Below are positions 31,785 to 49,045 of a stretch of DNA of 64,000 bases, one piece after another. The translations under genes and the position numbers were made by a program. This stretch comes from Banduia mediterranea (GTDB lineage Bacteria; Pseudomonadota; Gammaproteobacteria; Nevskiales; Nevskiaceae). Location of the stretch: contig NZ_JAVRIC010000014.1 of assembly GCF_031846245.1 (NCBI RefSeq), forward strand, positions 1 through 64,000, written 5' to 3'. Numbering within the stretch: the first letter of the stretch is position 1; each line of letters begins with the position of its first letter. The notes beneath the pieces were generated by a model that did not search any database, was not told the DNA's origin, and saw only the letters and a program-made list of their open reading frames with translations.

Positions 31785-32388
31785 ACTTTGGGGTCAGGTC
31801 TTGTTCCTTGCCGCACCTTTTCTCAGATCGGCGCGCTCTCCGGTCTGCACTATTCAAGGTATTGATCGGCGACCCTCGTCAAAGCGCAAGACCTGACCCC
31901 ACTCGCTTGGCAAGGAACAAGACCTGACCCCAACGCCCTCCAAGAAACGCGAGAAGACGCCTGCTCCTGGAAGGCTTGCAACCAAGTCATCGATTCGTAG
32001 TTGAGGCTTCGCAATGTAAGCGACGTTATTGGGATCATGGCCTCGATTGAAGTGCGGGTGGTATTCTGCCCAATCGGGGTCACCAATTGGGGTCAGGTCT
32101 TGCGCCTTGACGCAGCCCGCCGATCCACACCTCGCGCGATCCGGCTTACCGGCGAGTAGTCGAGTAGTGCTACCCGAAGTGCACACCGATCTGCGGAAGT
32201 TGTCGGTGTCCGCTCTCGTAGGCGTCGCGATCTTCGTCATTGAGGAAGATAGCTTGACGGGCATTGCCGCGCGCCATCACATGATGGATCGCGCCGGGGA
32301 ATTCGATACGCAGAGGGCGGGCCATGCCGGGAACGTAGCGAAGCCAAAGAAATTTGGCAAGGAACAAGACCTGACCCCGACGTCCGTT
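31785..32388. repeat. Cluster of REP-like GGGGTCAGGTCTTG units in both orientations
   Basis: The core GACCTGACCCC occurs at 31890, 31921 and 32368, and its complement at 31790 and 32089. Several copies carry the extension CAAGACCTGACCCC preceded by GGCAAGGAA. Together with the RAYT fragment at 32173-32325 this is a REP/RAYT island. The 150 bp at 32238-32388 nearly repeat 1-150 of the window. The unit directly abuts two truncated genes, the transposase on its left and the dynamin-like gene on its right. Confidence 0.8.
32173..32325 (-). pseudogene. RAYT transposase, N-terminal fragment
   Basis: From ATG 32325 (minus) the frame reads MARPLRIEFPGAIHHVMARG, then NARQAIFLNDEDRDAYESGH, and stops 50 codons in, long before the HUH and catalytic Tyr motifs of the family. 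Nearly identical to the stub at 1-90, with a few substitutions. Non-functional, but it marks the REP cluster around it as RAYT-derived. Confidence 0.7.
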
Positions 32389-32391
32389 GCT

Positions 32392-34113
32392 CTACCCAAG
32401 GACCAATCTATCGCGCAGATTGTTTAATTCAGATATCGCCTTTTCAATTTGTTGCCGCTGTTCAATATTTGCTTCTGATGTGCTCTGTAAGTCTTGCAAT
32501 GCTTCAGAAACATGGCGAATTTCAGTCGTATAGAAAGATGTTGATAACTCATCCATACGTTTGACAAACTCAATTTTCAACTCAAGAAATATTTCCCGAT
32601 AATTCTTCCTAATATCGCGTCTAGCAGCTATTAGGTCTGCAGCGCGCTTCTCTTGTTGAATGTCGTCATTGATTTGTACGATTACGCCGATTAACGCCAT
32701 AACCGGCCCGACAAACTTCGCAGCTGAGCCAATTATTTCAGTAATATTAACAGCTTGATGAGGTTTAAATTTGGCGCCAAAAAAGTGTCCTATCTCCAAA
32801 ACTGCTTTGTGGAGGTTGCTGCCCGATGCTGCTTTCGTCCCTTCTTTAGCAGTCTTATTGATCGCCTGATTTGATAACCATGAGAATCCTTTCTCTGCAG
32901 ACTTAAGAGTCTTCTGTGTTTTTACCGAACCCTCATATTTATCGCCGACATTATGCGTTTTAATATCAATATCTGCATTAGCATTAAGTTGATCTGTAGC
33001 TTGAAAATGATCGCTCAAAGCGGCTTTGAGTGACTCTGCTAGCGGGCTTGTATCCAGCTCTTGCAGATCAGATTCAAGAGTACTTAAAGCTGAATCGACG
33101 ATTTTCTCAAGTTTCAGCTGGGTTTGCTTAACTTGAGCAAGAACATCATCTGCAGAGCGCAGCTGTACTTGCTTAAAATCCGCCTCGTTGAGGCCATCAT
33201 CCACTGACTCCGCCAGCTCATCACCAATAAGTAGAATATTTTGCTCCATTTCAGCTAAATTGCCATCAAACTGCTCTTGAAGCTGCTTTTGACTAGTCTT
33301 TAAAATCCTCATCTTTTGCTGAAGCAGTTCAACCAGCGCTTCCTGCGTCGGATCTTCAGCGGCCAATTTGCCTAGTAACTCTTCTAACTGAGTGTGTATA
33401 GCGGCTAACGGTGTAGTCACCTTGCCTAGCAAACCTCGCTCTTGGGAAAATTTGTCAATAGCTTCGATAAAGCCACTAAAGTTGGATAGAGCCATTAACT
33501 CTGCTCTATCTTCTTCATCCTCTTCTTCCAATGACTCGAAATATGACTCTGCATCAACAAATACAATAGGAAAGTCTTCCGGTATTCTGGGTTCTAAAAC
33601 CTCAGCAATCCCATTTAATTTGGTCTCCACAGTACCTGAATCGCGTTGAGATTTATTTACTGCCAGAAGAATTTCTTTTTCTCTTCCTTTTGTAAAACAT
33701 AGATCTCTAAATGCAGCCCCAACAACATCGTCAAACAGTTCATTTGTAATCACGTAAACCAACAAATCCGCTTGATCCATCGCTGTAAATGATGCTTCAT
33801 CATGCTGCTCTCTTTCACCAGCAAGTATGCCAGGGGTATCCCATACAACCAGATCTTTGTAGTCATACTTAGTCACTTGATCAGTTGTCACGCCTGAGCC
33901 AATGGGAATGTCATCAAGTCCTGTTAATCCTTTAATTAGAGAGGATTTCCCAGAGCTATATTGGCCAACAAAAGCGATATTTAGCTTTGAATTTTGATAC
34001 TCGTCTTGATTCGGAAAACTGAGGCCCAGTTCAGTTAACTCATTTCTCTTAGACAAATCAGCGATAAATGCCGACACCATTTGTTTAGCCTGATTAAACT
34101 TCAACTCTTCCAT
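32392..34113 (-). CDS. Dynamin-like GTPase (LeoA-like, smaller partner)
   Basis: 573 residues from ATG 34113, which overlaps the TAA of the upstream gene (TAATG) and has GAGG 10 nt upstream; an earlier TTG at 34122 is less likely. Dynamin_N GTPase: P-loop GQYSSGKSS (50-58), switch Thr region GVTTDQ, DTPG (92-95) and NKSQ in place of NKxD. Long helical stalk follows, with one hydrophobic segment (FVGPVMALIGVIVQI, about 490-505) suited to membrane contact, then a coiled-coil end. Size and pairing resemble LeoA of the LeoA/LeoBC (Eleos) systems. Strongly AT-rich compared with its surroundings, so probably acquired. It ends 4 bp from a REP unit, so the native downstream flank is lost. Confidence 0.82.
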   Translation of the reverse strand: MEELKFNQAKQMVSAFIADLSKRNELTELGLSFPNQDEYQNSKLNIAFVGQYSSGKSSLIKGLTGLDDIPIGSGVTTDQVTKYDYKDLVVWDTPGILAGEREQHDEASFTAMDQADLLVYVITNELFDDVVGAAFRDLCFTKGREKEILLAVNKSQRDSGTVETKLNGIAEVLEPRIPEDFPIVFVDAESYFESLEEEDEEDRAELMALSNFSGFIEAIDKFSQERGLLGKVTTPLAAIHTQLEELLGKLAAEDPTQEALVELLQQKMRILKTSQKQLQEQFDGNLAEMEQNILLIGDELAESVDDGLNEADFKQVQLRSADDVLAQVKQTQLKLEKIVDSALSTLESDLQELDTSPLAESLKAALSDHFQATDQLNANADIDIKTHNVGDKYEGSVKTQKTLKSAEKGFSWLSNQAINKTAKEGTKAASGSNLHKAVLEIGHFFGAKFKPHQAVNITEIIGSAAKFVGPVMALIGVIVQINDDIQQEKRAADLIAARRDIRKNYREIFLELKIEFVKRMDELSTSFYTTEIRHVSEALQDLQSTSEANIEQRQQIEKAISELNNLRDRLVLG

Positions 34114-36239
34114 TAATGACAAACCTCACTCATTTCATGCATTGGTTTTGCAGATAACTTGATATTACAAATAGCAGCAGCCAACATAATATTGCGTCCC
34201 TGCTTTCCAATAATCCGGCCAAGATCTTCTTCTTTAGCAAAAATGAAATACTCTCCATTTTCACCTTCGACTCGAGCCCTATTTTTTCTAAGACCCAACA
34301 TATGAGAAAGCATCTTTTCTACCGAGCTTTCGTATACCACTCTAACCCGCTCACCCAAAAGTGTCTGCAACGATGAGAGCAGCTCAGGCTCTTTAAAATG
34401 ATTGGTGACGGTGAAATAGCAAGCGTAACCGGGTTGGCGGACTATGCGTTTAAACTTTGGTTTTTGATATTTATCTGAAGCCACGATATCCATAGACCGC
34501 AGCAAGTACCTTTCGTTTATGTCATGTTCTAATTGATCAAGCTGGAGAAACGCTTTTTCGAGAGACTGAATAAACATCTCAAGCCCCATGCAGACCTCAT
34601 TTAAGTCCGATTTAATCTGAAGTATCTGCTTTCGTTCGATATCCTTGTGAAACCATTTTGTGATTTCTTTAATCGAATTATCCCGTTGCACTGCAATTTC
34701 ATCACGAATCTCTTTAGTTCGACTACGCTTTTCCATTTGTAGCTTCTTGGTTTTTGAATCCGAGAACATTTGAAACAAACCAAACACGAAGCCTGCCGCT
34801 GCTAGTCCCCAACCAATGGGATTCCAGCTATTTGCAAAAGCAATGACAGAAAGAACACCCAGCCCGGCTGCTGTCCAACCATTCATGCGTTTATAATCAA
34901 AAGGATCAAATGACATTTTACTTCCCTCTATATTGAGCTTGCCACCAAGCTCAATATTCTTAGCCATATCCCGATTGAATTGTTCAAGATCAGAAGCAAG
35001 TTCTTCAGCTATATTATTTGCCACATTTTTGCAGCGTTCTTCTAAATCAAAAGAAGCAATGTGATCTTCAAGTCTATTGCCAAAATACTTAGACTGAATA
35101 TTGTCATCAACAAAACTTGATATTGACTTCATTAACGGAGCAAAAGCGCGTCCGACATCTTTTTCAATCTTATCCGGCACCCGTTTTGACTGGCGTTCGT
35201 GCCATTTATAAACACGCTTCTGGGTATTAGCATATTCCTTGAGCAGCCCTTTCACTGATTCTTTCTGGGAACGAATCAATGTCTCAAGATCATCCGTATG
35301 GGTTAATGTCGATCCTAATAGCGTTTGAACTCGTCTAGCACGGCCTTTATGCGTAATTTCATCTATTAATAGCGTCAGAAGATTATCCATTCGACTGACT
35401 CGATAAAGATCTTCTTTTTGATCGCTATAGGCTTCCTGAGTCGACAAAAAAGCTGCTTGAGCGTGTATAGGGACAATATGGATGTATCTTGGGTTCATCC
35501 CCAGCTTTGCAGCTTCATTTCGCAACCTTTCCTTGTGCCCTTCGAGGTCTGAAGCATTGTAGATATAGCTATCGGTATCTTTTATCGCCTTTTTTCTATG
35601 AACATTCTTCTCCAGGTTTTTCTTCACGTTCACAACAAATATTAAAGGCTTGTTCAACTGATAGGCGTATTTCAGCTCGGTAAATGTAGACTCCTGAATA
35701 CTGTCATCGCTGAGTAAAAAGAGAATCACATCTGATTGTTCAAGAATGCTGCGTGCTATCTCTGTATCTTCCTCACCGTTATAAGCACCAAACCCTGGTG
35801 TATCTATAATACGAAGATGATTCCAGTCATACTGACGCACGTCTCGGGTCGTTCTTTGCGCCCCCATCCCTATAGTTGATCCATCTCCTCCAGTGATGGC
35901 TTCACGTATAGTGCTTTTACCCGCCATAGTGCGACCAAACAACATAACACTAAAGCTTTTTAGTGACTCTTTCTGCTGTTCTAAAGCCTTTGCTTGCTTA
36001 GCCCTGAGCAACTCATAACCGGCACCCAAGCTGCTTTGAATATCAGTCAATCCCTTTGCCGCAACCTGATCCTTGGCGGTAACTTGTTCTGCCTTCCATG
36101 CAATATCGTTAAATTCATTTTTTAGGTTGTTAACAATTTGATCGCAACGCTTACTAAACTTTACTGCCGCTTTGAATTCTTCCTGAGCAATCTTTTCGCA
36201 ATCCTTCAGTGCTTTGCGATAAGCATCCAGCTTCTTCAT
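34113..36239 (-). CDS. Dynamin-like GTPase with C-terminal NusA-like KH domain (LeoBC-like partner)
   Basis: 708 residues. Helical N-terminus; GTPase with GRTMAGKST (102-110), RTTRD switch, DTPGFG (146-151) and a divergent G4 NVKKN (204-208); helical stalk 300-450; hydrophobic hairpin 454-492 (GWTAAGLGVLSVIAFANSWN then PIGWGLAAAGFVFGLF), likely the membrane paddle; second helical part. Residues about 605-700 look like paired KH modules of the NusA type: LLGERVRVVYESSVEKML, then EYFIFAKEEDLGRIIGKQGR with the GxxG loop at 678-681 and NIMLAAAICNIKLSAK. First gene of the pair, translationally coupled to the second. AT-rich. A KH end on a dynamin is the unexpected part. Confidence 0.82.
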   Translation of the reverse strand: MKKLDAYRKALKDCEKIAQEEFKAAVKFSKRCDQIVNNLKNEFNDIAWKAEQVTAKDQVAAKGLTDIQSSLGAGYELLRAKQAKALEQQKESLKSFSVMLFGRTMAGKSTIREAITGGDGSTIGMGAQRTTRDVRQYDWNHLRIIDTPGFGAYNGEEDTEIARSILEQSDVILFLLSDDSIQESTFTELKYAYQLNKPLIFVVNVKKNLEKNVHRKKAIKDTDSYIYNASDLEGHKERLRNEAAKLGMNPRYIHIVPIHAQAAFLSTQEAYSDQKEDLYRVSRMDNLLTLLIDEITHKGRARRVQTLLGSTLTHTDDLETLIRSQKESVKGLLKEYANTQKRVYKWHERQSKRVPDKIEKDVGRAFAPLMKSISSFVDDNIQSKYFGNRLEDHIASFDLEERCKNVANNIAEELASDLEQFNRDMAKNIELGGKLNIEGSKMSFDPFDYKRMNGWTAAGLGVLSVIAFANSWNPIGWGLAAAGFVFGLFQMFSDSKTKKLQMEKRSRTKEIRDEIAVQRDNSIKEITKWFHKDIERKQILQIKSDLNEVCMGLEMFIQSLEKAFLQLDQLEHDINERYLLRSMDIVASDKYQKPKFKRIVRQPGYACYFTVTNHFKEPELLSSLQTLLGERVRVVYESSVEKMLSHMLGLRKNRARVEGENGEYFIFAKEEDLGRIIGKQGRNIMLAAAICNIKLSAKPMHEMSEVCH

Positions 36240-36418
36240 ATATCTATTCTCACAATGAATAATTCACTCAATTTCTACACCTATTCCCTTTCCGTCTGAA
36301 TCACATTGACTGTTTCGTGATTATTCATACGTGACAAAATGAATTTTTCCGCCCTATCTGATAGAGGTTTAATTCACTCATTTTTGTATGCTTAACGCTT
36401 ATTAGACCTCAGGATGAC
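36240..36418. promoter_or_regulatory. AT-rich upstream region of the dynamin pair
   Basis: About 180 bp, clearly AT-rich, presumably holding the promoter. On the minus strand there are TTGTCA (near 36337) and TATGAA-type hexamers but no clean -35/-10 pair. TAATTCACTCA occurs twice in direct orientation at 36260-36270 and 36370-36380, 110 bp apart, a possible regulator or recombination site. No ORF is seen. Confidence 0.35.
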
Positions 36419-36613
36419 GCCTAACCTGCCAATCAGACGTATAATCTGTACAGAATTTTGGCTCTATGTCGTTTCGGGTGGAAGACAAGGCCCAGTTTCT
36501 CGAGCTGCTGTTGAGCGTCAAGGTCGGCCGCAGGCCGCCCGAAGGGCTTGGCCTTGACGCTCGGCGGCAGCGTGAAATGCTCGGAAAAGGCTTGTCGGGC
36601 AAGCAGTTAGGCC
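36419..36613. repeat. attC-like symmetrical site of a decayed integron
   Basis: The segment begins GCCTAACCTGCC (36419-36430) and ends GGCAAGCAGTTAGGC (36599-36613): R''-like RYYYAAC and R'-like GTTRRRY with inner L-type CTGCC/GGCA. Inside is a strong hairpin: GAGCGTCAAGG (36513-36523) with CCTTGACGCTC (36552-36562), extended by wobble pairs. At 195 bp it is longer than usual attC sites. An integrase fragment lies 150 bp to the right, in the orientation expected if cassettes lie to the left on the minus strand. Confidence 0.45.
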
Positions 36614-36763
36614 GACAAGCCTTGACCACGGAGCATTCGTCCTCACCATGATCGACGCAACACACTGAGAAGGGTGTCCAGCACATCAACGGTAACTGCA
36701 CGCGATGAGGGCACGATTGTTCCACCTGAAACGTCATGGACCCAGAATTTTTGTAAGTAACTG

Positions 36764-36991
36764 ATGAGAACGGGTATGTCATCAGAAAATACGTCTGTTC
36801 AAAGCATAACCGCATTGGATTCAAGGCCTCCCAAGCTCTTGGAGCAGGTCCGCCACCGTATGCGCGCCAAGCACTACAGCCTGCGAACGGAGGAAACCTA
36901 TGTCCACTGGATTAAACGCTTCATCGTGTTTCACGGCAAGCGGCACCCGGCGGACATGGGTGCGGGGGTGGTGGAGGCGTTTCTGAGCCGT
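36764..36991 (+). pseudogene. intI: Integron integrase (IntI), N-terminal fragment
   Basis: From ATG 36764 or 36776 the frame contains [20 protein letters not shown], then [20 protein letters not shown] and [14 protein letters not shown]. This matches the SAM-like core-binding domain of integron tyrosine recombinases (HYS.RTE..YV.W...FI.FH..RHP..MG..EVEAFL). After VEAFLS the sequence changes to unrelated residues; the catalytic R-H-R-Y domain is missing. Dead integrase, but good evidence that an integron once stood here. Confidence 0.8.
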
Positions 36992-37305
36992 GTGCTCCCC
37001 ACTCTTCATGAACGCCTCAATCAGGCAACACGAAGATTACAGGCCGATTCCACTCGATTCAGCATGGACCCAATTTTCGGCACGCGCGACCGATCCGGTG
37101 GCCTTGCTTGGAGTTTTCAAGAGCTATGCGAGCGTGGAGTCTGTGACGACGCGCATCGGTCAATCAAGGCAGGCAACGCAAGACGCATGCACATGAGATC
37201 GGCTCTCGACAGACGGAATCCGGCGACGTAACACCGCCATCGCCACCGCGGCAATCATTGCCGGCGAAACAATGGACCCGCCGCGGTTTTGAGATCGAAA
37301 CCCGA
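36992..37305. other. 314-bp junction region, no gene
   Basis: Frame continues open from the intI fragment to 37231 but without recognisable protein similarity. ATGGACCCAATTTTCGG near 37064 resembles ATGGACCCAGAATTTTTG near 36736, a small imperfect repeat flanking the integrase fragment. ACCGCGGC (about 37247) and GCCGCGG followed by TTTT (about 37280) are inverted and could terminate plus-strand transcription. Confidence 0.35.
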
Positions 37306-39405
37306 TCAGAACGCATAGCGCAGCGACAGAATCAGCAAACGCTCGTGATCGGTCGGCGTGCCGGTCGCGGTCGCCAGCAGGTTCGACACGGTGTCGGGCT
37401 CGAGCCCGTCGAGCGACCAGTCGCTGTAGCGCAGCGACTGCCAGGCGTAGCTGAGCATCGTCGTCATCCGCGCATTGACGGGATAACGCGCATAGAACCG
37501 CAGGCTGCGGAAGCGGGTGTCGTTGTCGGGAAAACCGGCGGCCGACGCACCGGCGTCGATCCCGACCGATTCGCTGGCGCGGGAGTCGCTGTAGTTGAGA
37601 CCGAGGTCGGCCTTGTTGATCGCCTGCTTCCACTGGCCGTCGAAACCGATCGTGCGGATTGTGTCGTCGCTGCTGCCGTACCAGTCCGGCGTCGAGTAGC
37701 GGCGGCTGCCGGCCTGTTGCGACTCGATGCGCTCGAGGCTGGTATAGGCGTGGAGACTGACATCGGCGACCGGCGTCCAGCCTGCGTCGATCGTGCCGAT
37801 CCTGTCCTCGGCACGCGTCAGGCCGATCTGCGTGTCGTCGTAACGGTCTTCGCGCCACTGGAAATCGGCCGCCAGCATGACGCCGCGATGCGGTGAGAAC
37901 GAGCCCGACACCGACACCGCGTTGCGCGTGCGCGCGGCGAGGTTGAAGCGGCGCAGCAGCGGGTTTTCGAGCGGGCGGCCGTCGACATCAAGCTCATGCC
38001 AGGACGACACCGAGCGCGACGAGTGGGTATAGCGCAGGTCGAGATCGATGCGCTGGAGCAGGCTCGTGCGCAGCCCGGCCCAGGCCTTGGTGGTCTGCGT
38101 GCGCGCGACCTCCTGGTAGCTGCGGTCGTAGCGCTGCTTCTCGCCACCGAGCAGGAACTGCAGGTCCGGGCGCAGGCGGTAGCGCGCCTCGACCTCGGCC
38201 GCCTGGCGCTTGTAGCTGTAAGGCAGGTTGACGCGGTATTCGCCGACGTAGGCGTCGCTCGGCACCTGTTGGTACTCGGCCATGTCCGTGTGGTTCTTGC
38301 GCTGGTCGAGCGTGTACTGCGCCGTCAGCGACAGTCCGCGTGCCGGCCGCGCGCTGAGACGGAGCAGGTGATTGACGGTGTCGACGCGGCCATCGAGGCT
38401 GGACTGTGGCAGCGCGGCGACGCCGAGCGTGTCGTTGATCGTCGGCTCGATGTAATCCTGGTCCTGGCGCCCGCGTCCGTAGGACAGATTGGCCGTGAGC
38501 CGCGTCGACGGCAGCAACTGCCAGGCGCCGCTCAGCGAAAGCTGGTTGAAGCTGTTGTCGGGCGCGGTGCTGGCGCGGCCTTCGGTCGCGCCGCTGTAAG
38601 CGGTGTACGGATTGCTCCATTCGAGTGCGTCGACATCCTGCTCGAAGTACGATCCGTAGAAGCCGAGCGCGAGCTGCCAGTTGTCACCGCGCCGCGCGAC
38701 CGAGGCGTCGAGCTGATGCGTGAGCTGGTCGACCGGCAGCGGCAGCTGGGACGCCGCCGTCAGCACGCTGCCGGCCAGCATCGAGGCGCCGGCAACGCGG
38801 TCCTCGCGCAGGTCGAAGGCGAAGTTCCAGGCCGAGGCGCGCGGCGTGAAGCTGCCGCCGAGCGCGAAGCGGCTGCGCCGGGTATCGAGGCTCAGGGAAT
38901 GCAGCGAGGCATCGAGCGCGCTCATCTGGTCGGTCGCGCCGGCAGCGACCCAGTCCTCCGGCAGGTTCAGCCGCTCGCCATCGCGGACAAACGGCGTGAC
39001 CGCGTTGCCGTAACGGAACTGCGGAATCTGCTGCCAGCTGCCGTGCAATTCGTAGAGTCCCTGGCGGCCGCCGCGGGCGTCGATCCGCCGCGACAACAGG
39101 CCCAGTTCGTCGGCGACGGCGTCGAACCAGGCGCCGTGCTCGTTGCGGTACGAGGCCTCGCCGCCGGCCAGCAGGTAGGCGCCGTCGTCACGCAGGCCGG
39201 TGTATTCGCCAAGGCGGTAGCTTGCCGCGTCGGCGTACTCGAACCCCAGGTCGGCGAATCCGCGCCAGCCATAATCGAACTGGCAGAAGCGGCAATCCCA
39301 ATGCGAGGTGTCGGGTCCGTCCTCGGCCGCGACGGCCTCGCCGCTGCCGAAGCCGAGCAGCAATCCGAGCGGGATGGCGATCGATCGAAGCGGATGCGGG
39401 CTCAT
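37306..39405 (-). CDS. mtrB: MtrB/PioB-family outer-membrane beta-barrel of an electron conduit
   Basis: 699 residues from ATG 39405. Signal peptide (SIAIPLGLLLGFGSGEAVA) followed after a few residues by the CxxC pair WDCRFCQFDYGW, a conserved N-terminal feature of MtrB proteins. The rest alternates aromatic/polar beta strands (LRYTHSSRSVSSWHELDVDG, YDDTQIGLTRAEDRIGTIDA) and ends with the outer-membrane signal ILSLRYAF (terminal Phe). It sheathes the decahaem MtrA so electrons cross the outer membrane. Third gene of mtrCAB, 11 bp after mtrA. Confidence 0.92.
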   Translation of the reverse strand: MSPHPLRSIAIPLGLLLGFGSGEAVAAEDGPDTSHWDCRFCQFDYGWRGFADLGFEYADAASYRLGEYTGLRDDGAYLLAGGEASYRNEHGAWFDAVADELGLLSRRIDARGGRQGLYELHGSWQQIPQFRYGNAVTPFVRDGERLNLPEDWVAAGATDQMSALDASLHSLSLDTRRSRFALGGSFTPRASAWNFAFDLREDRVAGASMLAGSVLTAASQLPLPVDQLTHQLDASVARRGDNWQLALGFYGSYFEQDVDALEWSNPYTAYSGATEGRASTAPDNSFNQLSLSGAWQLLPSTRLTANLSYGRGRQDQDYIEPTINDTLGVAALPQSSLDGRVDTVNHLLRLSARPARGLSLTAQYTLDQRKNHTDMAEYQQVPSDAYVGEYRVNLPYSYKRQAAEVEARYRLRPDLQFLLGGEKQRYDRSYQEVARTQTTKAWAGLRTSLLQRIDLDLRYTHSSRSVSSWHELDVDGRPLENPLLRRFNLAARTRNAVSVSGSFSPHRGVMLAADFQWREDRYDDTQIGLTRAEDRIGTIDAGWTPVADVSLHAYTSLERIESQQAGSRRYSTPDWYGSSDDTIRTIGFDGQWKQAINKADLGLNYSDSRASESVGIDAGASAAGFPDNDTRFRSLRFYARYPVNARMTTMLSYAWQSLRYSDWSLDGLEPDTVSNLLATATGTPTDHERLLILSLRYAF

Positions 39406-39416
39406 CGCGGCACCCG

Positions 39417-40400
39417 TCAGCGGCTCAGGTCCGCGCCGGACGGCGCATTGGAGCCGTGCACGTGGGAATGGCAGTTGGTACAGCTTCCGCCAAGCACGAA
39501 AGCCGAAGGGCTGGAGCCGCCAGCGAGCCCGCGCCCCGTAAACGGCAGACCCGGATGGTCCTCCGCGGAGTGGCATTGCTGGCACAACTGCGGCGGACGG
39601 CGTGTCAGCAACGCCGGCCGCGGCGAACCGTGCGGCACATGGCAGTTGGCGCAGTCCTCGGCCACCGGCGGGTGCTCCCACAGGAACGGGCCGCGCAGAT
39701 CGGCGTGGCAGGTGTAGCAGGTCTGGTTGACGGTCGGCTTGTGCAGCATCGCCGCGAACATCGAGTCGTGCGCGGCGTGACAGGAGGTGCACTGCATCAC
39801 CCCTTCGCGCACCGGATGCGCCGAGAATTTCTCGAAGTCGGCGCGCACCTCGCGGTGGCACTTCTCGCAGACCTGCGGCTGCTCGTGCGCACTCATGACC
39901 GGATCGTGGTCGGCGTGCACGGTGTGGCAGCTCGCGCAGGCCACGTCCTCGCGCTCGTGCACGCTGCCCTGCCAATCGACGCGATGGCCGCCCTGGTGAC
40001 AGGCCAGGCAGGCACCGTTTTCCTCGGCGACGCTGGCCGCGGAGTGCTTGCCGAACAGCGGAATCGGCGGCCGCGGATCGCCGGGATGCAGGCGTCTGGC
40101 ATGCTCGCCGCCGGGACCGTGGCAACTTTCGCACTGCGCCTGCGCGAACGGCGTGCGCGAATCGGCGCGGCGGCCGTGCGGCGAGTCGAAGATGCTTTTC
40201 ACGTGCGCATCGTCATGACACTTGATGCAGGTGTCCGCGCCGCGCGGCGAGAACGAGGGCGCCGCTTCGGCGGATTCATCGGATGCCGACGTCACCGCAG
40301 CCGCTGACGGCACGGCGGCGCCGACCGCAGCCAGCGCCAGCACGAGACAGGCCAGCGCACGCCCGCTCCGCCGGCCCGGCTTCGCCGCGCGTGGCGTCAT
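39417..40400 (-). CDS. mtrA: MtrA-family periplasmic decahaem cytochrome c
   Basis: 327 residues from ATG 40400, overlapping the mtrC stop by 4 bp. Sec signal (ALACLVLALAAVGAAVPSAA). Ten CXXCH haem sites: CIKCH, CESCH, CLACH, CASCH, CEKCH, CTSCH, CYTCH, CANCH, CQQCH and CTNCH. Size and haem count match MtrA/PioA/DmsE, which pass electrons from the periplasm into the MtrB barrel. The N-terminal half repeats the haem spacing of the C-terminal half, as in family members derived from pentahaem duplication. Confidence 0.95.
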   Translation of the reverse strand: MTPRAAKPGRRSGRALACLVLALAAVGAAVPSAAAVTSASDESAEAAPSFSPRGADTCIKCHDDAHVKSIFDSPHGRRADSRTPFAQAQCESCHGPGGEHARRLHPGDPRPPIPLFGKHSAASVAEENGACLACHQGGHRVDWQGSVHEREDVACASCHTVHADHDPVMSAHEQPQVCEKCHREVRADFEKFSAHPVREGVMQCTSCHAAHDSMFAAMLHKPTVNQTCYTCHADLRGPFLWEHPPVAEDCANCHVPHGSPRPALLTRRPPQLCQQCHSAEDHPGLPFTGRGLAGGSSPSAFVLGGSCTNCHSHVHGSNAPSGADLSR

Positions 40401-42655
40401 GGCAGACCGTGCACGACCGCGACGTCGGCAATCGAGCCCGAGCCGTGGCAAACCGCGCAGCTTTCGGTCGTCGCCGCGCTGCTGCCGATCTCGGCCGCGG
40501 TGATGCCGAAGCCGCCGCCGTTCTGCTGCATGTGCGTGACGGCCGCCTGATCGTCATGGCAGGACGAGCACACCGCGCTGGCCGGCGAGATGCGTCCATA
40601 GGACGCAAGGTCCTCGACCGCGCCCGGCGGCGAGAAGTCGCCGGCCAGCCTGGTCGCATGCGTGTCGATCGTCGTGCCGAGCACCGTGCTCTGCAGCGGC
40701 AGCGCATAGCTCGACGATTCGTGGCATTGCGTGCAGTTGGCGACCACGCCGGGATAGCCGATGCCGGAGAAGTCGTTGACCGAGCTGCGGTAGCCGTAGA
40801 CCACGAAGTTGCTGCTGCGCACCGAAGCGCCGTGAATCGCGTGAATCATGAGCTTGAAGTCGATCGGACGCTGTTCGAGACCATCGACGGCCGCGGTGTT
40901 GACGCCGTTGGCGCTTGCGTCGGGATCGTCCGGACGCACCGCCAGATCGGTCGCGTTCGGCGTATGGCACATCGTGCAGAGCTGCACGTTGTCGGTGCGG
41001 TTGTTGCCGTGGAACGACAGGCCATCGTTGACGCCGTGGCAGGCCTGGCATTTGTCGAGGCTGACGACGCTGCGGCGCGCCGCGGGTACCGTGTCGGTGA
41101 TCGCGAAATTCTCGGTCACCCCGGTCACCGGAATGCGGTCGGAATAGATCCCGTCACCGTCGTAGTCGCCGGCCGGATGGCCTTCGATCGCGACCGTGCC
41201 CGAGCCGGTCACGTCGTACGGCACCGGCACCGATGACGTCACGGTAAAGGTGCCGTCGCCGTTGGACGTGGCCGCACTCAACGCGGAGATCGCGACCGGC
41301 CCACCCGGATAGTCGCCGCTGCCGACATTGCCGTAATCGGCGGTGCTCCAGGCGATGTCGATGCTCAGCGAGGAATTGCCGCCGGCCGTGAACGGCGCGT
41401 CGGCGAGGATGTCGTAGGGCGCGTTGCCGTCCTCGGGGTTGGTCACCGAGAAGCTCACGCTCGGGTACTGGCCCTGCCCGGTGTCGTCGATACTGAGAAT
41501 GTTGTACTGGAAGCGGGCCGCCCACAGCTTGCCGGGAATCTGGTGCGATTCCGGCACGCTGCCGGCGACTCGGTTCTCGGCGTGGCAGACCGTGCACTGG
41601 GTGTTGTCGGTGACGACGCCGCCGGGATGACCGCCGGCCGCGCCGGCCGCGAAATCGACGTCGTCATGGCAGCTTCCGCAGGCCTGCAGCGTCGGCTTGT
41701 TGATGAAATGGGCGGCCTGCGGTGTGCTGCTGTCGTCCGGATTGTGGCAGCCGGTGCAGTTGCGCAAGTCCTTCGGGAATTCGACCTCGGAGTAGTCGTG
41801 CACGCTGTTGCCGTAGCCGTAGATCAGATACGGCGTGCCGGCGACGACGCTCGGCAGTTCGGCGCCGGCGTGGATCCTGTGGATCATCACCATGAAGTCG
41901 ATCGACTGCCCGCTGCTCGCCTCGACGCTGCCGGGGTTGTGGCAGGTCACGCACAGCTTGACGTCGCGCCGCGCGCCGCCGTGCGCGGACAGATCACCAT
42001 GGCAGGCATTGCAACTGGCCTGCGCAACCATGTCGCGACCGTCCTCCGGCTCGGTGCTGCCGGTGGACGGCTGCCAGGTGTAGACGGCGTTGTTGACCGT
42101 TGGCAGCGTCCCCGAGCGCACGGCGATGGCGACGCGGTGCGTCAGCGTCGCATCGTACTCGACCGCGCGCGGCTCGGTGACGTGCGTGACGTCGGCGCCG
42201 AAGGTATAGGAATAGCTGCCGTCGTTGTGGTCTTCGAGACTGCCGCCCGAGTCGCGGGCGGCGATGATCGTTTCCTCGGTGCCTGCTCCGCTGCCGCTCG
42301 GCTCTTCAGTCTGGTTGATGTAGCTCTGCCAGCTGTCGGCGTCGCCATCGGTGCCCGGCAGGAGCCTCGCCAGCATGACTTCGAGCGTACTCGCGGGCAG
42401 GCCGACGTAGGGCAGGCCGGATTCGTCGATGAGCGTGAAGTCGACCGTCGAGCTGTCGCCGAGGCTCGCGCCGGTGATCGTCAGCGTCAAATCGCTTTGC
42501 CCGTTGCTGACCGGAATCGTCGTGCCGGGCGTGCCGGGCTCGCCTGCGGGCCCTTGCTCGCCGTCGTCGCCATCACATCCGGCCAAGGCCCCGAACAACA
42601 GCAGCGAAAACACGAACAAGCACGCGTTGCCACGCCGACGGCTATGAAGATACAT
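40397..42655 (-). CDS. mtrC: OmcA/MtrC-family surface decahaem lipoprotein cytochrome
   Basis: 752 residues from ATG 42655 with GGGAG upstream. Lipobox LFGALAGC, then a short collagen-like GEQGPAGEPGTPG stretch seen in this family. Ten CXXCH sites in two groups of five (CNACH, CVTCH, CTGCH, CGSCH, CTVCH; CQACH, CTMCH, CTQCH, CSSCH, CAVCH), separated by a beta-rich domain, and an N-terminal beta domain, giving the four-domain plan of MtrC/OmcA. Terminal reductase of the conduit, handing electrons to minerals, electrodes or other extracellular acceptors. First gene of the mtrCAB operon. Confidence 0.95.
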   Translation of the reverse strand: MYLHSRRRGNACLFVFSLLLFGALAGCDGDDGEQGPAGEPGTPGTTIPVSNGQSDLTLTITGASLGDSSTVDFTLIDESGLPYVGLPASTLEVMLARLLPGTDGDADSWQSYINQTEEPSGSGAGTEETIIAARDSGGSLEDHNDGSYSYTFGADVTHVTEPRAVEYDATLTHRVAIAVRSGTLPTVNNAVYTWQPSTGSTEPEDGRDMVAQASCNACHGDLSAHGGARRDVKLCVTCHNPGSVEASSGQSIDFMVMIHRIHAGAELPSVVAGTPYLIYGYGNSVHDYSEVEFPKDLRNCTGCHNPDDSSTPQAAHFINKPTLQACGSCHDDVDFAAGAAGGHPGGVVTDNTQCTVCHAENRVAGSVPESHQIPGKLWAARFQYNILSIDDTGQGQYPSVSFSVTNPEDGNAPYDILADAPFTAGGNSSLSIDIAWSTADYGNVGSGDYPGGPVAISALSAATSNGDGTFTVTSSVPVPYDVTGSGTVAIEGHPAGDYDGDGIYSDRIPVTGVTENFAITDTVPAARRSVVSLDKCQACHGVNDGLSFHGNNRTDNVQLCTMCHTPNATDLAVRPDDPDASANGVNTAAVDGLEQRPIDFKLMIHAIHGASVRSSNFVVYGYRSSVNDFSGIGYPGVVANCTQCHESSSYALPLQSTVLGTTIDTHATRLAGDFSPPGAVEDLASYGRISPASAVCSSCHDDQAAVTHMQQNGGGFGITAAEIGSSAATTESCAVCHGSGSIADVAVVHGLP

Positions 42656-42743
42656 GCTCCCGACCCCTTGACTGGCAGCGGCGGCAGGAATCCGTTGACG
42701 GCACGTCCGATCCCGCCCCCGCATCTGCTTGCTGGTTCTTTCG

Positions 42744-42813
42744 ATTACAGCACGCGTCGATCGCAGCGATATTGACCACGATCAATTTCGCGGATGCCCG
42801 CTTGCCGTAGTCT
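42744..42813. promoter_or_regulatory. FNR-type box shared by divergent promoters of mtrCAB and the cytochrome/cymA arm
   Basis: TTGACCACGATCAA (42772-42785) matches the FNR consensus TTGAT-N4-ATCAA at 9 of 10 positions. On the minus strand TGTAAT (42744-42749) and on the plus strand TAGTCT (42808-42813) resemble -10 hexamers. Each hexamer centre is 32 bp from the box centre, the geometry of a class II activator site at -41.5. Both operons would then be induced by low oxygen from one site. Confidence 0.65.
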
Positions 42814-42882
42814 GCGATCACGTAGACGCCGATGCGGCCAATCACCCAGAAGCGGTTCGCCCGCTCAGGTCCGGAGACAAGA

Positions 42883-43485
42883 ATGCGCATCAAATCTTTC
42901 GCGACACTGCTCGTGCTGTCGTTCGCGCTCGGCGGTACCGCCGCCGCCGCGGCGCCGGATTCGGCGGCCGGCTGCGCCGCCTGCCACGGCGAAGGTGGCG
43001 TCAGCCAGCGTTCCGACATCCCGACGATCGCCGGCCTCTCGGAGTTCTATCTCGAAGGACAGATGCAGGCGTATCAGAAAGGCGATCGCCCCTGTGAAAA
43101 GGTCAAGGGCGATGACGGCCAGACGGCCGACATGTGCGACATCGCCAAGGCGCTGACGGCCGATCAGATCGCCGAGATCGACGCCTATTTCTCCAGCCAG
43201 GACTTCGTCGCGGCGGACCAGACCGCCGACGCGGCGCTGGCCGCCAAGGGCAAGGCGCTGCACGAGCGGCGTTGCGAGATCTGCCATTCCGACGGTGGCA
43301 GCTTCGCCGACGACGACGCCGGCCTGCTCGCCGGACAGTGGAAGCCCTATCTGCAGTCGATGCTCGTCGAATACCGCAGCGGCAAGCGCGTCGAGCCGGA
43401 GAAGATGAAGCCGCAGACTTCGGCCCTGTCCGACGACGACATCAAGGCCCTGGTCGAGTTCTACGCCAGCGAAACCACCGAATAA
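42883..43485 (+). CDS. Periplasmic dihaem cytochrome c (c4-like)
   Basis: 200 residues from ATG 42883, preceded by GGAGA. Sec signal (FATLLVLSFALGGTAAAAA). Two class I cytochrome domains, each with one CXXCH: CAACHGEGG near residue 38 and CEICHSDGG near residue 130, each followed by the G-L.G/AGQW-type region (IAGLSEFYLEGQM; LLAGQWKPYLQSMLVEYRSG) and an axial Met candidate (QTADM; PEKMKP). Tandem duplication typical of c4. Likely shuttles electrons in the periplasm, for example between CymA and MtrA or to an oxidase. Transcribed away from mtrCAB and followed 28 bp later by the tetrahaem gene. Confidence 0.9.
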   Translation: MRIKSFATLLVLSFALGGTAAAAAPDSAAGCAACHGEGGVSQRSDIPTIAGLSEFYLEGQMQAYQKGDRPCEKVKGDDGQTADMCDIAKALTADQIAEIDAYFSSQDFVAADQTADAALAAKGKALHERRCEICHSDGGSFADDDAGLLAGQWKPYLQSMLVEYRSGKRVEPEKMKPQTSALSDDDIKALVEFYASETTE

Positions 43486-43513
43486 GATCGGCGACGTCCC
43501 AGGGGAAACGACT

Positions 43514-44113
43514 GTGAACCCGGAACAGGGAGAAGACACGCAGCATCGCGGAATCGGCGCGCGCCTGTGGAAACGGCCGCGACGCTGGTTCCTGTTCGGA
43601 ATTCCGCTCGGCGGCCTGCTCACCTTCGTACTTGGAATCGGCGTCGCCGGCGGATTCGTCGGCGGGCTGAAATACACCGAAACCGATGCGTTCTGCACCT
43701 CCTGCCATGAGATGAAGCAACCGCTCGCCGAGCTTCAGCAGAGCATTCACCATTCCAACGCCTACGGCATTCAGGCCGGCTGCGCCGACTGCCACGTCCC
43801 GCCGACCCTCTTCGGCGGCCTGATGCGACACGTCCGCGCGAGCACCGAGGTCTGGGGACACTTGACCGGCAAGCTCAACACGCCCGAAAAGTACGAGGCC
43901 CTGCGGGCCCAGCTCGCGCAGAAGATCTGGGCGGAATTAAAGGCGAACGACTCGGCGGAATGTCGCAGTTGTCACAATCAGGCCGCAATGGACCTGAGCA
44001 AACAGGACCGTATCGCCGCCAAACGGCATTCGGCCGAATACATGGCCAAGAGCGGCAAGACCTGCATCGATTGCCACAAGGGCGTTGCCCACGTACTGCC
44101 CGAAGGCGTCTGA
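43514..44113 (+). CDS. NapC/NirT-family tetrahaem quinol dehydrogenase (CymA-like)
   Basis: 199 residues from GTG 43514, preceded by AGGGGAA. One N-terminal membrane helix (FGIPLGGLLTFVLGIGVAGG), then four CXXCH sites: CTSCH, CADCH, CRSCH and CIDCH. The pattern TDAFCTSCHEMKQPLAELQQ and the C-terminal CIDCHKGVAH are those of NapC/NirT/CymA proteins, which oxidise menaquinol or ubiquinol and pass electrons to periplasmic cytochromes. Beside mtrCAB it most likely plays the CymA role. Confidence 0.93.
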   Translation: MNPEQGEDTQHRGIGARLWKRPRRWFLFGIPLGGLLTFVLGIGVAGGFVGGLKYTETDAFCTSCHEMKQPLAELQQSIHHSNAYGIQAGCADCHVPPTLFGGLMRHVRASTEVWGHLTGKLNTPEKYEALRAQLAQKIWAELKANDSAECRSCHNQAAMDLSKQDRIAAKRHSAEYMAKSGKTCIDCHKGVAHVLPEGV

Positions 44114-44159
44114 GCCGCGACCCGGTTTGGCGAGCCTGCCCGAAGGCGTGACTGATTCA

Positions 44160-44503
44160 GTGCACCGGCCGGCTCTGATGCAGCCGATCCCTGCCATACC
44201 GCCAGATGATGCGCAGCCCCTCACCGAAACGGAAATTGACGACATGGCGCCGCCAGAACAGCCCGCGTTTGTCGCAGACCGTGGAGATCGAGAAACGCGA
44301 AATCTCGCCGAGCAGCGCCGGATTTCAGGCTGTCGCGTCGCGACCTTCGGCAGGAGCCAGGCCGGCGGCACGGTGAAGAACTCCAAGCGAGGTTGACGAT
44401 GCCACACCTGCAGGCCGCACGCGTGCGGATAGCTCGCGATCGTCAGAAAGCCCAGCGGATACATCTCGAACACCGCCTGAACGGCGGACCTTGCGACACG
44501 GCA
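44160..44503 (-). pseudogene. Possible frameshifted ORF downstream of the prenyltransferase
   Basis: Right after the prenyltransferase stop, one minus-strand frame reads VFEMYPLGFLTIASYPHACG, then LQVWHRQPRLEFFTVPPAWL, and loses protein character near 44340. A second frame then reads LLGEISRFSISTVCDKRGLF, then WRRHVVNFRFGEGLRIIWRY, ending in a stop near 44160. Both pieces look coding and together could be one gene of about 110 codons broken by an indel. I do not recognise the family. A sequencing error would have the same appearance. Confidence 0.35.
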
Positions 44504-45403
44504 TCAGCCGAGCAGCAGGCCGACCGCGAGCAGCAGTAGCGTGAGGTGGATCGTCGCGACGTTGATTCCGAGATAGCGCAGCAGGCGCTTCGTGTCGTCG
44601 GCATGGGTGTGTACGCGCACCGCCAGCAGCAGGCCCGCGGGCAGCGTCAGCAGCGCCAGCAAAGCGGGCAGCGGCAGTATCGAGGCCAGAACGCCGCCAA
44701 TGATCGTGAGATAGGTCGCGATCAGCAGCGCGCCGAACAGCACGGCGGCGCGACGCCGGCCCAGCACGATCGGCAGGTGACGCCGCCCGACCTGGCGATC
44801 GGCTTCGACGTCGGGAAACTGGTTGATCAGCAACAGCTCGCTGACCAGCAGCAGCGGCGGCAATGCCGCCACCGCACCGACCCAGCTGTAATGGCCGCTC
44901 AATACGAAGGCGCTGCCGCCGACCATCACCGGGCCGAATCCGAGACCCGGTGCCAGCAGGCACAGCAGCGGCTGGCGCGTGATCAGCGGCGTATACGCGA
45001 CCACGACGAGCGCCCCGACCAGACCCAGCGGTAACAATGCCCAGCCCTTTTCAGCGATGAAATAAAGGCCGATCGCGACGCTGCCGGCCAGGGCCACGGC
45101 ACCGGCCGCGCCGGCCGCGGCGGCAGCCTCGGGGTGCGCCGGCAACGAGCCGCTGCCACCCGAAAACGGGGTTCGCACCGTCAGGTGGTCTAGTCCCGAC
45201 CGGAAATCGTGATATTCGTTGAGCAGGTTGACGCTGATGTGTCCGAGCAGGGCCGCGAGCAGCACCAGCAGGCTCTCGCCGATATCGACACGGCCGGCCG
45301 AATGCAGCGCCGCCGCGATGCCGAGCAACACGCACAGCGGCGTCAGGCTCAGGAAATTGGGCCGGGCGGCATGAAACACCGGGCCGATGATTGTGCGTTC
45401 CAT
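44504..45403 (-). CDS. UbiA-superfamily prenyltransferase (MenA-like)
   Basis: 299 residues, eight to nine predicted membrane helices. First Asp-rich prenyl-diphosphate motif NLLNEYHDFRSGLD (NxxxD) and second motif QFPDVEADRQVGRRHL, both of the MenA/UbiA type. MenA attaches the polyprenyl chain to dihydroxynaphthoate in menaquinone synthesis, and the second motif here is close to that group. It could supply the quinone used by the CymA-like dehydrogenase just upstream, but no other men genes are in view, so the acceptor is not certain. Confidence 0.75.
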   Translation of the reverse strand: MERTIIGPVFHAARPNFLSLTPLCVLLGIAAALHSAGRVDIGESLLVLLAALLGHISVNLLNEYHDFRSGLDHLTVRTPFSGGSGSLPAHPEAAAAAGAAGAVALAGSVAIGLYFIAEKGWALLPLGLVGALVVVAYTPLITRQPLLCLLAPGLGFGPVMVGGSAFVLSGHYSWVGAVAALPPLLLVSELLLINQFPDVEADRQVGRRHLPIVLGRRRAAVLFGALLIATYLTIIGGVLASILPLPALLALLTLPAGLLLAVRVHTHADDTKRLLRYLGINVATIHLTLLLLAVGLLLG

Positions 45404-45675
45404 CCGTCAACATTCCCCGTCAGGGTCCAGTGAAAGCGGGCGTCCCCCAACCAAGCCAGCGTACCGGGCGCCAGCAGGCCCACGGTCGAGCTGTCGACCG
45501 TCGTCAGCGGCAACGATGCCGCAAGCGGCGCCTGCTGGCTATGCAGGTGAATCCACGCGGCAGGGCCAAGCCAGCGCGAGACGGACCGACAGGCTCGTCA
45601 CCAGCGTGTTGAGCCACAGCATCGCAGGCTCTCCAGCGTCGCCGTGTCCCGACCGTGAACAGCGGCGACCGCCGC
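45404..45675. other. 272-bp gap with a possible coding remnant
   Basis: On the minus strand one frame reads RWLGPAAWIHLHSQQAPLAA, then SLPLTTVDSSTVGLLAPGTL and AWLGDARFHWTLTGNVDG, ending just before the prenyltransferase ATG. A second frame upstream begins MLWLNTLVTSLSV. A one-base indel near 45590 would join them into a protein of about 75 residues. There is no recognisable family and no intact start, so this is a possible pseudogene only. Confidence 0.3.
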
Positions 45676-47070
45676 TCAGGGCAGCTTCAGCGCGCGGCAC
45701 AGGCGCTCTCTGCCGTCCAGTTCGGCGTCGAGCGCCGCCAGCATCATGAACATGCCGGTCAACCGCCGGTGCAGGAACACGATCTCGCGCGGCGGCAGGC
45801 GGAAGTGCACCGTCACCGTGCTCGCCGCGGTGGCGAGCGCGGCACGTTCCGGCAGGTCCGAACGTCCCCATCGGTATTCGCCGCGCGCGTTCCAGAGATG
45901 CGCCTGCGGACCGCCCCTGGGCGGCTCGGCAAACGGTTCGACCAGTGCCTCGCACATGCGCGAAAAGCCGTCGAGCACGGACTGCGGAAAATCCTCGCGC
46001 AGGATGCCGATCGCCGCCGCGCCACGGATGATGCGCGGGCGCTCGTGCAGCAACGCGCCGCGCACGATCTCCGCGTAGGCTTCGACGAACGCCGGCCTGA
46101 AACGACGCACCGCGCCGAAATCGAGCAGCAGGAGGGCGTCGCCTTCGGGGGTCCCCGGGCGGAACAGATAGTTGCCGAAGTTCGGGTCGCTCTGCACCAT
46201 GCCCCAGCCGAACAGCTCGGTCAGGAACAGGTCCAGCAGTGCATCGGCGTAGCGGTTGCGGCGTGCCTGTGACAGCGCCCGAATTTGTGGATCGCTCACC
46301 GGACGCCCGCTCTCGTACGTCATCGTCAGTACGCGAAGTCCGCAGTATTCGGGCAGCATCCGCGGTACGGCGAAACGCGCATCGCCCTGCAGACGCTCAG
46401 CGTAGAGCTGCGTGTAGCGCCGCTCGCGGCGGTAGTCGACCTCCTGGCGCAGCATCTGCCTGAGCTCGTCGAACATCGGCCGCAGGTCCAGGCCCCTGGG
46501 CGTGATCCGGCTCAGAATCAGCAGGCGCGACAAGGTGCGGATATCGCTGTCGATCGCGTCGGCGACACCCGGATACTGTACCTTGAGGCAAAGCTCCAGA
46601 CCGTCGGATTTGCGGCGGGCGCGGTGTACCTGCCCGAGCGAAGCGGCACCGATCGCGGTTTCGTCGATGTCGAGCTGCGCCATTTGCGCGGTGCCGAGGC
46701 CACGCCGCACGATCGGTTCGAGCGTGCGCCACGGCACCGGCTGCGACAGGTCCTGAAGCTGCCCGAGTATGCCCACGGCGTCCTCGGGCAGGAAATAGGC
46801 GCCATAGAGCGCGAGCAGCTGGCCGGCCTTCATCACGCTGCCCTTGAGCTGGCCGAGCTGTTCGACCAGCTGCTGCGCCTGCTCGCGGTAGAAGGTCTGA
46901 TTCGCCGCGCTGCGGCCATCCGCGTCACGAAACAGATTGCGCGCGCTGTGTGCGACGAAGCGCGCGCCCATGCCCGCCCCCATGCGTGCGAGCGCGGCAT
47001 TGCGCTGCAGCGGGGTGACCTTGAGCCCGATGAATGCCTCGTCCTGCTGCGGGTCCACGGCGCTGTTCAT
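45676..47070 (-). CDS. ABC1/UbiB/ADCK-family kinase-like protein
   Basis: 464 residues. Conserved KxGQ helix LKGSVMKAGQLLALYG, the Ala-rich loop GAASLGQVHRA, ion-pair Lys in LCLKVQYPG, catalytic-type QSDPNFGNYLF and metal-binding LLDFGAVRRF. These identify the atypical kinase family that includes UbiB and ADCK3, needed for ubiquinone synthesis or quinone extraction. Unlike UbiB it lacks the long C-terminal membrane helix pair, so it is nearer to the soluble ABC1 type. Its neighbourhood (prenyltransferase, Nqr, CymA) fits quinone metabolism. Confidence 0.85.
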   Translation of the reverse strand: MNSAVDPQQDEAFIGLKVTPLQRNAALARMGAGMGARFVAHSARNLFRDADGRSAANQTFYREQAQQLVEQLGQLKGSVMKAGQLLALYGAYFLPEDAVGILGQLQDLSQPVPWRTLEPIVRRGLGTAQMAQLDIDETAIGAASLGQVHRARRKSDGLELCLKVQYPGVADAIDSDIRTLSRLLILSRITPRGLDLRPMFDELRQMLRQEVDYRRERRYTQLYAERLQGDARFAVPRMLPEYCGLRVLTMTYESGRPVSDPQIRALSQARRNRYADALLDLFLTELFGWGMVQSDPNFGNYLFRPGTPEGDALLLLDFGAVRRFRPAFVEAYAEIVRGALLHERPRIIRGAAAIGILREDFPQSVLDGFSRMCEALVEPFAEPPRGGPQAHLWNARGEYRWGRSDLPERAALATAASTVTVHFRLPPREIVFLHRRLTGMFMMLAALDAELDGRERLCRALKLP

Positions 47071-47128
47071 GCGTGATACTGCCTTTGCAGCGATCGAAGA
47101 ACCGCTGCAGGTCGTCGATGAACGATCG

Positions 47129-47160
47129 AAAAAAGGCCGCGTCGAACGCGGCCTTTTTTT
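47129..47160. terminator. Bidirectional rho-independent terminator after nqrF
   Basis: A-run 47129-47134, GGCCGCG (47135-47141), loop TCGAA, CGCGGCC (47147-47153), T-run 47154-47160. On the minus strand it lies 26 bp after the nqrF stop and gives a stem followed by UUUUUU. It separates nqr from the ABC1-family gene. Confidence 0.93.
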
Positions 47161-47185
47161 CCGGTGCTCACCGACGCATTCCCGA

Positions 47186-48406
47186 TCAGCCGCCGAAATC
47201 GTCGAGCATGATGTCGTCGCGCTCCACGCCGAGATCGGTGAGCATCTTGATCACGGCGGCGTTCATCATCGGCGGGCCGCACATGTAGTACTCACAGTCT
47301 TCCGGTGCCTTGTGGTCCTTGAGATAGTTCTCGTAGAGCACGTTGTGGATGAAGCCGGTATAGCCGGTCCAGTTGTCCTCCGGCGTCGCGTCGGACAGGG
47401 CCACATGCCATTCGAAGTTGTCGTTGTCGGCGGCGAGCCCGTCGAAATCCTCGACGTAGAACATCTCGCGGCGGGAGCGCGCGCCGTACCAGAAGCTTAT
47501 CTTGCGCTGGGTCTTGATGCGCAGCAACTGGTCGAGGATATGGCTGCGCATCGGCGCCATGCCGGCGCCGCCGCCGACGAAGACCATTTCCTTGTCGGTG
47601 TCGCGCGCAAAGAATTCGCCGAACGGCCCCGAAATGGTGACCTTGTCGCCCGGCTTGAGGCCGAAGATGTAGCTCGACATCGCACCTGGCGGCACGTCCG
47701 GCTGACGCGGCGGCGGACTGGCGATGCGCACGTTGAGCATGATGATGCCCAGTTCGTCGGGATAGTTCGCCATCGAATAGGCGCGCATCACCGGCTCGTC
47801 CACCTTGGAGACGTAGCGCCACAGATTGAACTTGTCCCAGTCCTCGCGGAAGCGATCGTCGACCTGGAAGTTCTTGTATTCGACCGTATGCGGTGGGCAC
47901 TCGATCTGGATGTAACCACCGGCGCGGAAGTGGACCTGCTGTCCCACTGGCAGTTCCAGCACCAGTTCCTTGATGAAGGTGGCGACATTGTCGTTGGAGC
48001 GTACGGTGCACTCCCATTTCTTGACGCCGAACACCTCTTCCGGCACGTCGACCTTCATGTCCTGCTTGACTTTCACTTGGCAGGACAGGCGCTCGCCTTC
48101 GCGGGCTTCGCGCTTGGTGATGTGATTGAGTTCGGTGGGGCCGATCGAACCGCCGCCTTCGGGAATCTTGACGCGGCACTGCGCGCAGGAACCGCCGCCG
48201 CCGCAGGCCGAGGGCACGAACAGGCCGTTGGCGGCCAGGGTCTGCAGCAGCATGCCGCCGGTAGGTACCGAGATGCACTTTTCGCCGTTGATCTCGATGC
48301 TGACATTGCCTTCGGGCACCAGCATCGACTTGGCGAACAGGATGATCGCGACCAGCACCAGGATGATGGTGACGAAGAATCCGACGCCGAGAATGATTTC
48401 TGTCAT
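47186..48406 (-). CDS. nqrF: Na+-translocating NADH:quinone reductase subunit F
   Basis: 406 residues. N-terminal membrane helix, plant-type 2Fe-2S ferredoxin domain ([10 protein letters not shown] and the later LSCQ), then an FAD/NADH ferredoxin-reductase domain ([40 protein letters not shown]). Entry point of electrons from NADH. Last gene of nqrABCDEF, followed by a clear terminator. Confidence 0.97.
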
Positions 48407-48436
48407 CGTGCTAACCGTGGTTGAGGGGGGCGCCGA

Positions 48437-49042
<606 letters not shown>

Positions 49043-49045
49043 GAC

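Follow-up and report, generated by a model that had tools for sequence, protein, structure and literature searches.

A PdsA-type MtrCAB gene cluster with a predicted FNR-type promoter box in the gammaproteobacterium Banduia mediterranea

The stretch of DNA analysed here, hereafter the window, comprises 64,000 nucleotides of Banduia mediterranea (assembly GCF_031846245.1, contig NZ_JAVRIC010000014.1, positions 1 to 64,000, forward strand) and carries a five-gene cluster encoding an MtrCAB porin-cytochrome conduit together with a dihaem and a tetrahaem cytochrome. Judged by its genes, this locus is a PdsA-type MtrCAB, a further case of a layout which has already been described and which is not that of Shewanella, and it is likely to represent an electron-export chain which low oxygen would be expected to induce. 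The gene layout itself is known, and the parts worth following are the common FNR-type promoter box and the apparent lack of a menaquinone pathway. From the sequence we infer the expression, localisation, electron path, direction, acceptors and activity of the locus. In what follows, L-numbers denote the public contig loci compared and G-numbers the genomes, the host being G000, its sister species G001, and G021 and G081 members of the same family. The contig of L007 belongs to G021, with identical coordinates and cluster; this metagenome-assembled genome (MAG), REEB218, filed as 'Gammaproteobacteria bacterium', is the nearest named relative. Genome-wide statements of presence or absence derive from family searches.

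The barrel protein MtrB was recognised by PF11854 (433 bits, E 2e-129) and TIGR03509 (398 bits, cut-off 240), MtrA by TIGR03508 (294 bits, cut-off 192) and MtrC by TIGR03507 (559 bits, cut-off 209), and at the level of sequence the family E-values, from 1e-55 to 1e-167, exclude chance matches. In addition, MtrA and MtrB could be matched nearly end to end with the solved MtrCAB of Shewanella baltica (6R2Q), and MtrC with the structures of MtrF, OmcA and MtrC. A preliminary description of this DNA had reported ten CXXCH motifs in each of two decahaem proteins, which are indeed the exact counts in MtrA and MtrC, and a CxxC at the N-terminus of the barrel, which is present (WDCRFC) and coincides in the alignment with the CxxC of the S. 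baltica MtrB (6R2Q). The cluster thus holds what defines an MtrCAB conduit, namely a ten-CXXCH MtrA, an adjoining MtrB/PioB barrel and a decahaem lipoprotein of the OmcA/MtrC family. The likely start of mtrB is at 39408, the listed open reading frame start at 40134 being an over-extension, while that of mtrC is most likely at 42655. The dihaem c4-like protein which had also been described was recovered with PdsA (NF049874) as its best curated family, at 187 bits and under the cut-off of 330, and its sequence marks it as a PdsA homologue, not a certified PdsA. The tetrahaem protein, described as a NapC/CymA-like quinol dehydrogenase, shows the features of the CymA/NapC-NirT group, with a PF03264 (NapC/NirT) score of 209 bits, an N-terminal hydrophobic helix and four CXXCH motifs. 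A tight spacing, with a 4-bp overlap of mtrC with mtrA and 8 bp separating mtrA from mtrB, suggests an operon, and the pdsA-like and cymA-like genes diverge from them across a 227-bp gap, bearing out the head-to-head arrangement reported for 37306-44113 (Table 1).

Table 1. Features of the conduit locus and its surroundings in the window
Feature	Position	Strand	Basis or remark
mtrB, outer-membrane beta-barrel, 700 aa, N-terminal CxxC (CRFC)	37306..39408	-	families; 6R2Q chain B matched over full length (E 1.5e-73)
mtrA, decahaem cytochrome (10 CXXCH) of the periplasm/barrel	39417..40400	-	families; 6R2Q chain A, E 2.8e-86
mtrC, surface lipoprotein of the OmcA/MtrC family, decahaem (10 CXXCH), lipobox LAGC	40397..42655	-	families; structure matches
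pdsA-like periplasmic dihaem c4-type cytochrome, 2 CXXCH	42883..43485	+	family search
cymA-like membrane quinol dehydrogenase of NapC/NirT type, tetrahaem (4 CXXCH)	43514..44113	+	family search
Shared promoter gap of the divergent mtrC and pdsA	42656..42882		227 bp
Predicted FNR/ANR-type palindrome TTGACCACGATCAA	42772..42785		motif search
Species-specific 16.4-kb island	30734..47183		flanks 96-97% identical to sister species, interior absent there
Integron-integrase N-terminal fragment, mobility remnant by mtrB end	36764..37231	+	family search
MenA-like UbiA-superfamily prenyltransferase, possible accessory gene	44504..45403	-	family search
nqrABCDEF, Na+-translocating NADH:quinone reductase; abuts island, context outside conduit	47186..53071	-	also in sister species

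The same divergent five-gene layout was found in L007, L008, L009, L012, L017, L021 and L044, as well as on a Photobacterium plasmid (L063), with at least seven named public contigs sharing it. According to Baker et al. (2022; PMC8805035), pdsA adjoins mtrCAB in every cluster of Group 2 and in the majority of the gammaproteobacterial clusters of Group 3. With the latter (Thioalkalivibrio, Wenzhouxiangella, Marinobacter; PMC8805035) the window shares the C-A-B order, the adjoining pdsA and cymA-type gene, and a patchy spread with marks of mobility, although its MtrC has no domain-III disulfide. Group 2 includes the MtrCAB-PdsA-CymA or NetBCD systems of Vibrio and Aeromonas, where MtrCAB is needed for metal reduction (PMC8805035), and has the dihaem PdsA-like shuttle beside mtrCAB as well; nevertheless, the window PdsA-like protein scores under the PdsA cut-off, and L063, taken for comparison with this group, has an FNR box matching at just 9/10 and shares only 25%, 41% and 21% identity with the window MtrC, MtrA and MtrB, respectively. 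As for Shewanella, its MtrA, MtrB and MtrC are homologous over nearly the full length, but the window cluster has neither FccA nor CctA, carries cymA within it and has an FNR-type box, whereas the Shewanella mtr genes are activated by CRP (PMC4417206); moreover, the window MtrC lacks the CX8C and the host lacks MenD. Consequently, of the earlier proposal, the complete set for extracellular electron transfer in a non-Shewanella gammaproteobacterium stands, while Shewanella as its template does not, given the PdsA-like shuttle, the cymA inside the cluster and the FNR-type box.

The phylogenetic check which had been proposed for MtrA and MtrB places both with the same-family mtrCAB of L007 (support 100/99 for MtrA and 100 for MtrB), the MtrB tree, obtained by a quick method and with long branches, being relied on for this pairing alone. 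The window appears to lie near gammaproteobacterial MAGs, Thiogranum among them, and its MtrA and MtrB stand apart from a second copy in the host and from the Pio-like alphaproteobacterial rows, in trees which included neither authenticated PioAB/MtoAB nor Baker et al. sequences, Group 3 among them. A single N-terminal CxxC, used here purely as a homology marker and not as a signature of metal reducers, was found in all 38 mtrCAB-type MtrB proteins whose N-terminus is present, and is absent from the long Pio/Mto-like MtrB.

The gap between the two gene groups contains one palindrome of the FNR/ANR type, TTGACCACGATCAA, whose centre is separated from the starts of mtrC and pdsA by 123.5 and 104.5 bp, respectively, and which is the sole TTGAYN4RTCAA in the 64 kb (0.14 expected). 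This motif was present in 10 of the 12 divergent gaps of a first set. As a check free of selection by eye, an enumeration was made of the 3,328 palindromes which have the form X-Ns-rc(X) and a four-base X, and TTGA-N6-TCAA was again present in 10/12 gaps, followed by its own shifted form (4) and with every other palindrome in at most two. Two divergent loci added from other genomes, L085 with the box and L089 with none, brought the total to 11/14 gaps, the 11 matches falling within 5.9 kb of gaps as against 2 in 252 kb outside; since the loci are related, the Poisson values for the box overstate their independence. As the MtrC proteins of these loci are only about 25-62% identical to that of the window, a 14-bp site would hardly have been conserved without selection. 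The box was also seen upstream of three mtrC genes in other contexts (L083, L087, L091), and none was found at the betaproteobacterial mtrC genes checked. At L083 (5297-5326) there are two tandem perfect boxes (TTGATATTTATCAA) just upstream of a lone mtrC/omcA-type gene with no recognisable mtrAB nearby. Among the host proteins are two regulators of the FNR/ANR type, with CxxCx5C and a recognition helix reading ETVSR, and the predicted site and a matching regulator are thus found in the same genome, as in an FNR/ANR regulon; the view of the host as aerobic-looking has to be qualified in their light. A scan for terminators gave matches at chance level only. FNR control is not mentioned in the text of Baker et al. 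(2022; PMC8805035).

The second aspect concerns the quinone pool. In the host genome, which is 99.7% complete, no MenD was found over the cut-off of 244 bits, the best matches (75 and 53 bits) being rejected as other thiamine diphosphate enzymes, and no match to the MqnA family of the futalosine pathway was obtained either, so that neither the classical nor the futalosine route to a Shewanella-type menaquinol donor was recognised. MenD was present in the Shewanella control genome, whereas among 16 non-Shewanella genomes with mtr genes, one of them the host, 15 lack it, the sole exception being a Thiogranum MAG (L008). Several of these comparison genomes are incomplete MAGs, which makes single absences soft, but the overall pattern is consistent. 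Menaquinone genes were considered by Baker et al. a precondition for transferring the pathway to a recipient, and the absence of the quinone in such hosts was not discussed (PMC8805035). With neither MenD nor MqnA in the host, ubiquinol is the simplest donor to assume and probably the actual one, the ubiquinone genes themselves lying outside the search. Near the cluster, a MenA-like UbiA prenyltransferase gene is convergent with and downstream of cymA in two families (window 44504-45403; L085 4057-5646), both without MenD. Furthermore, the Na+-translocating NADH:quinone reductase operon adjoins mtr clusters in three genomes in differing arrangements, directly after mtrB in L010 (6135-11979), past cymA and the MenA-like gene in L085 (5679-10299) and beside the island in the window (47186-53071).

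The electron-export chain may be pictured as follows. The NapC/CymA-type tetrahaem protein would oxidise quinol, probably ubiquinol, at the inner membrane, and the dihaem PdsA-like protein would ferry the electrons over the periplasm to the decahaem MtrA within the MtrB barrel, from which the surface lipoprotein MtrC could hand them to outside acceptors such as metal oxides, humics or an electrode. The single palindrome between mtrC and pdsA is probably the binding site of an FNR/ANR-type regulator, which would coordinate both operons from this shared promoter region. If ubiquinol is the donor, acceptors of higher potential would be favoured, that is, Mn(IV), soluble Fe(III), humics and poised anodes.

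Several observations weigh against this picture. The host appears to have no menaquinone genes, while the CymA of Shewanella uses menaquinol. The box sequence fits FNR, ANR and DNR equally, and a scan for sigma-70-type promoters near it gave 0 matches as against 1.0 expected. In MtrC, an Asp follows the lipidated Cys at position +2 (CDGDDG), and Asp+2 in lipoproteins is a signal for retention in the inner membrane in E. coli; the same residue is found in the MtrC of L010, L060 and L085. Moreover, the 21 Cys of the mature protein are accounted for by 20 haem ligands and the lipid anchor, which leaves no non-haem Cys for the CX8-15C disulfide of domain III, said to occur in all outer-membrane multihaem cytochromes (MtrC/MtrF/OmcA/UndA; PMC4486940). 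The MtrC proteins of L007 and L060 likewise have no Cys between haems 5 and 6, and a CX9C is kept there in L008, L009, L011, L012 and others. In S. oneidensis, the loss of the domain-III Cys pair leads to more peroxide being formed in air (PMC9973256), and it may be speculated that a tight transcriptional shut-off under oxygen could offset the missing disulfide.

A ubiquinol donor also keeps alive the opposite direction of flow, in which Fe(II), a cathode or a partner cell would supply MtrCAB with electrons and ubiquinone would be reduced by CymA, as in Pio/Mto-like systems. Porin-cytochrome conduits are in principle reversible, the reduction of the quinone by outside donors would be thermodynamically easier in a host which, as the lack of MenD and MqnA suggests, has ubiquinone only, and G021, which has the closest cluster, has RuBisCO. 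The host itself, however, gave no match to RuBisCO, and its predicted control by an FNR-type regulator would be more in keeping with respiration at low oxygen than with an oxygen-using, Fe(II)-dependent lithotrophy. Although the window shares MtrA/MtrB homology with PioAB/MtoAB, it differs in its shorter MtrB with the CxxC, its surface MtrC and its separate branch from rows which are Pio-like only, none of them authenticated. The Pio-like assignment, which had been left as an alternative, is therefore disfavoured by the CxxC, the trees and the absence of RuBisCO, and uptake is considered unlikely. A likelier candidate for it would be the separate, divergent mtrA2-mtrB2-c4 copy of the host. This second porin-cytochrome locus (G000:C10, L050 11200-15550) encodes an MtrA2 with 10 CXXCH, an MtrB2 of 848 aa without an N-terminal CxxC and a dihaem c4-like protein, with no MtrC nearby, and is followed by F/N-type ATPase genes, recognised by eye; mtrA2 and mtrB2 are 96-98% identical in the sister species.

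Similarly unlikely, and marginally less probable than uptake, is that the cluster was recently acquired or is decaying, and lacks either expression or a connection to the host. It lies in a 16.4-kb island which carries transposase-like and integrase remnants and is missing from G001, a genome 96.6% identical to the window over 21341-30733 and 95.6% over 47184-54046. Convincing MtrC was found in just 2 of 61 genomes (the host and 60 near relatives), namely the host and G021 (62% identity). Against decay, however, the five reading frames are all intact with every haem motif kept, the G+C content of the mtr genes (63-70%) matches that of the host (65%), and the promoter box is conserved with a matching regulator encoded. 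The island may have been either gained in the host species or lost from G001, and, since its two flanks are on separate contigs in G001, the difference may stem either from a simple insertion or from a rearrangement. Besides the mtr genes, it holds a transposase-like reading frame, the integron-integrase fragment, two dynamin-like GTPase genes of low G+C content and two quinone-related genes. At its left edge (31229-32264) lie the transposase-like reading frame, recognised by eye, and a short sequence repeated several times in G001, while the GTPase gene pair (32392-36239, one LeoA-like), with 41% G+C as against 65% for the genome, is probably foreign. Part of the region of the integrase fragment (36764-37231) is 95% identical to a site in G001 (C49). 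In place of the island, an M13-type peptidase gene (by eye) comes after the nqr operon in G001, and no close host counterpart of it was found. In a further family member, G081, the cluster mtrC-A-B-pdsA-cymA is co-directional, and a search of a plasmid collection gave nqrF matches only with DNA and a single replicon, that of Photobacterium (L063), with protein.

Finally, respiration of a soluble outside substrate such as dimethyl sulfoxide by a DmsEF-like conduit, and not of minerals, is very improbable, for although TIGR03508 names MtrA as 'DmsE family', this model spans MtrA generally, and in the cluster no terminal reductase gene was recognised and a full surface cytochrome of the OmcA/MtrC family is present instead.

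The general pattern could be of interest beyond this host, with an FNR-type box in most divergent mtrC-pdsA promoters and MenD absent from nearly all the non-Shewanella mtr-bearing genomes tested. In this context, we tentatively propose, as an idea rather less likely than not and clearly more open to doubt than the export chain itself, that FNR-controlled MtrCAB respiration on ubiquinol instead of menaquinol may be widespread in supposedly aerobic Gammaproteobacteria, some of which might make or salvage a special quinone with the cluster-linked MenA-like enzyme. Should ubiquinol be the donor in these hosts, the process would differ from that in Shewanella in its energetics and acceptor range, and possibly in its direction.

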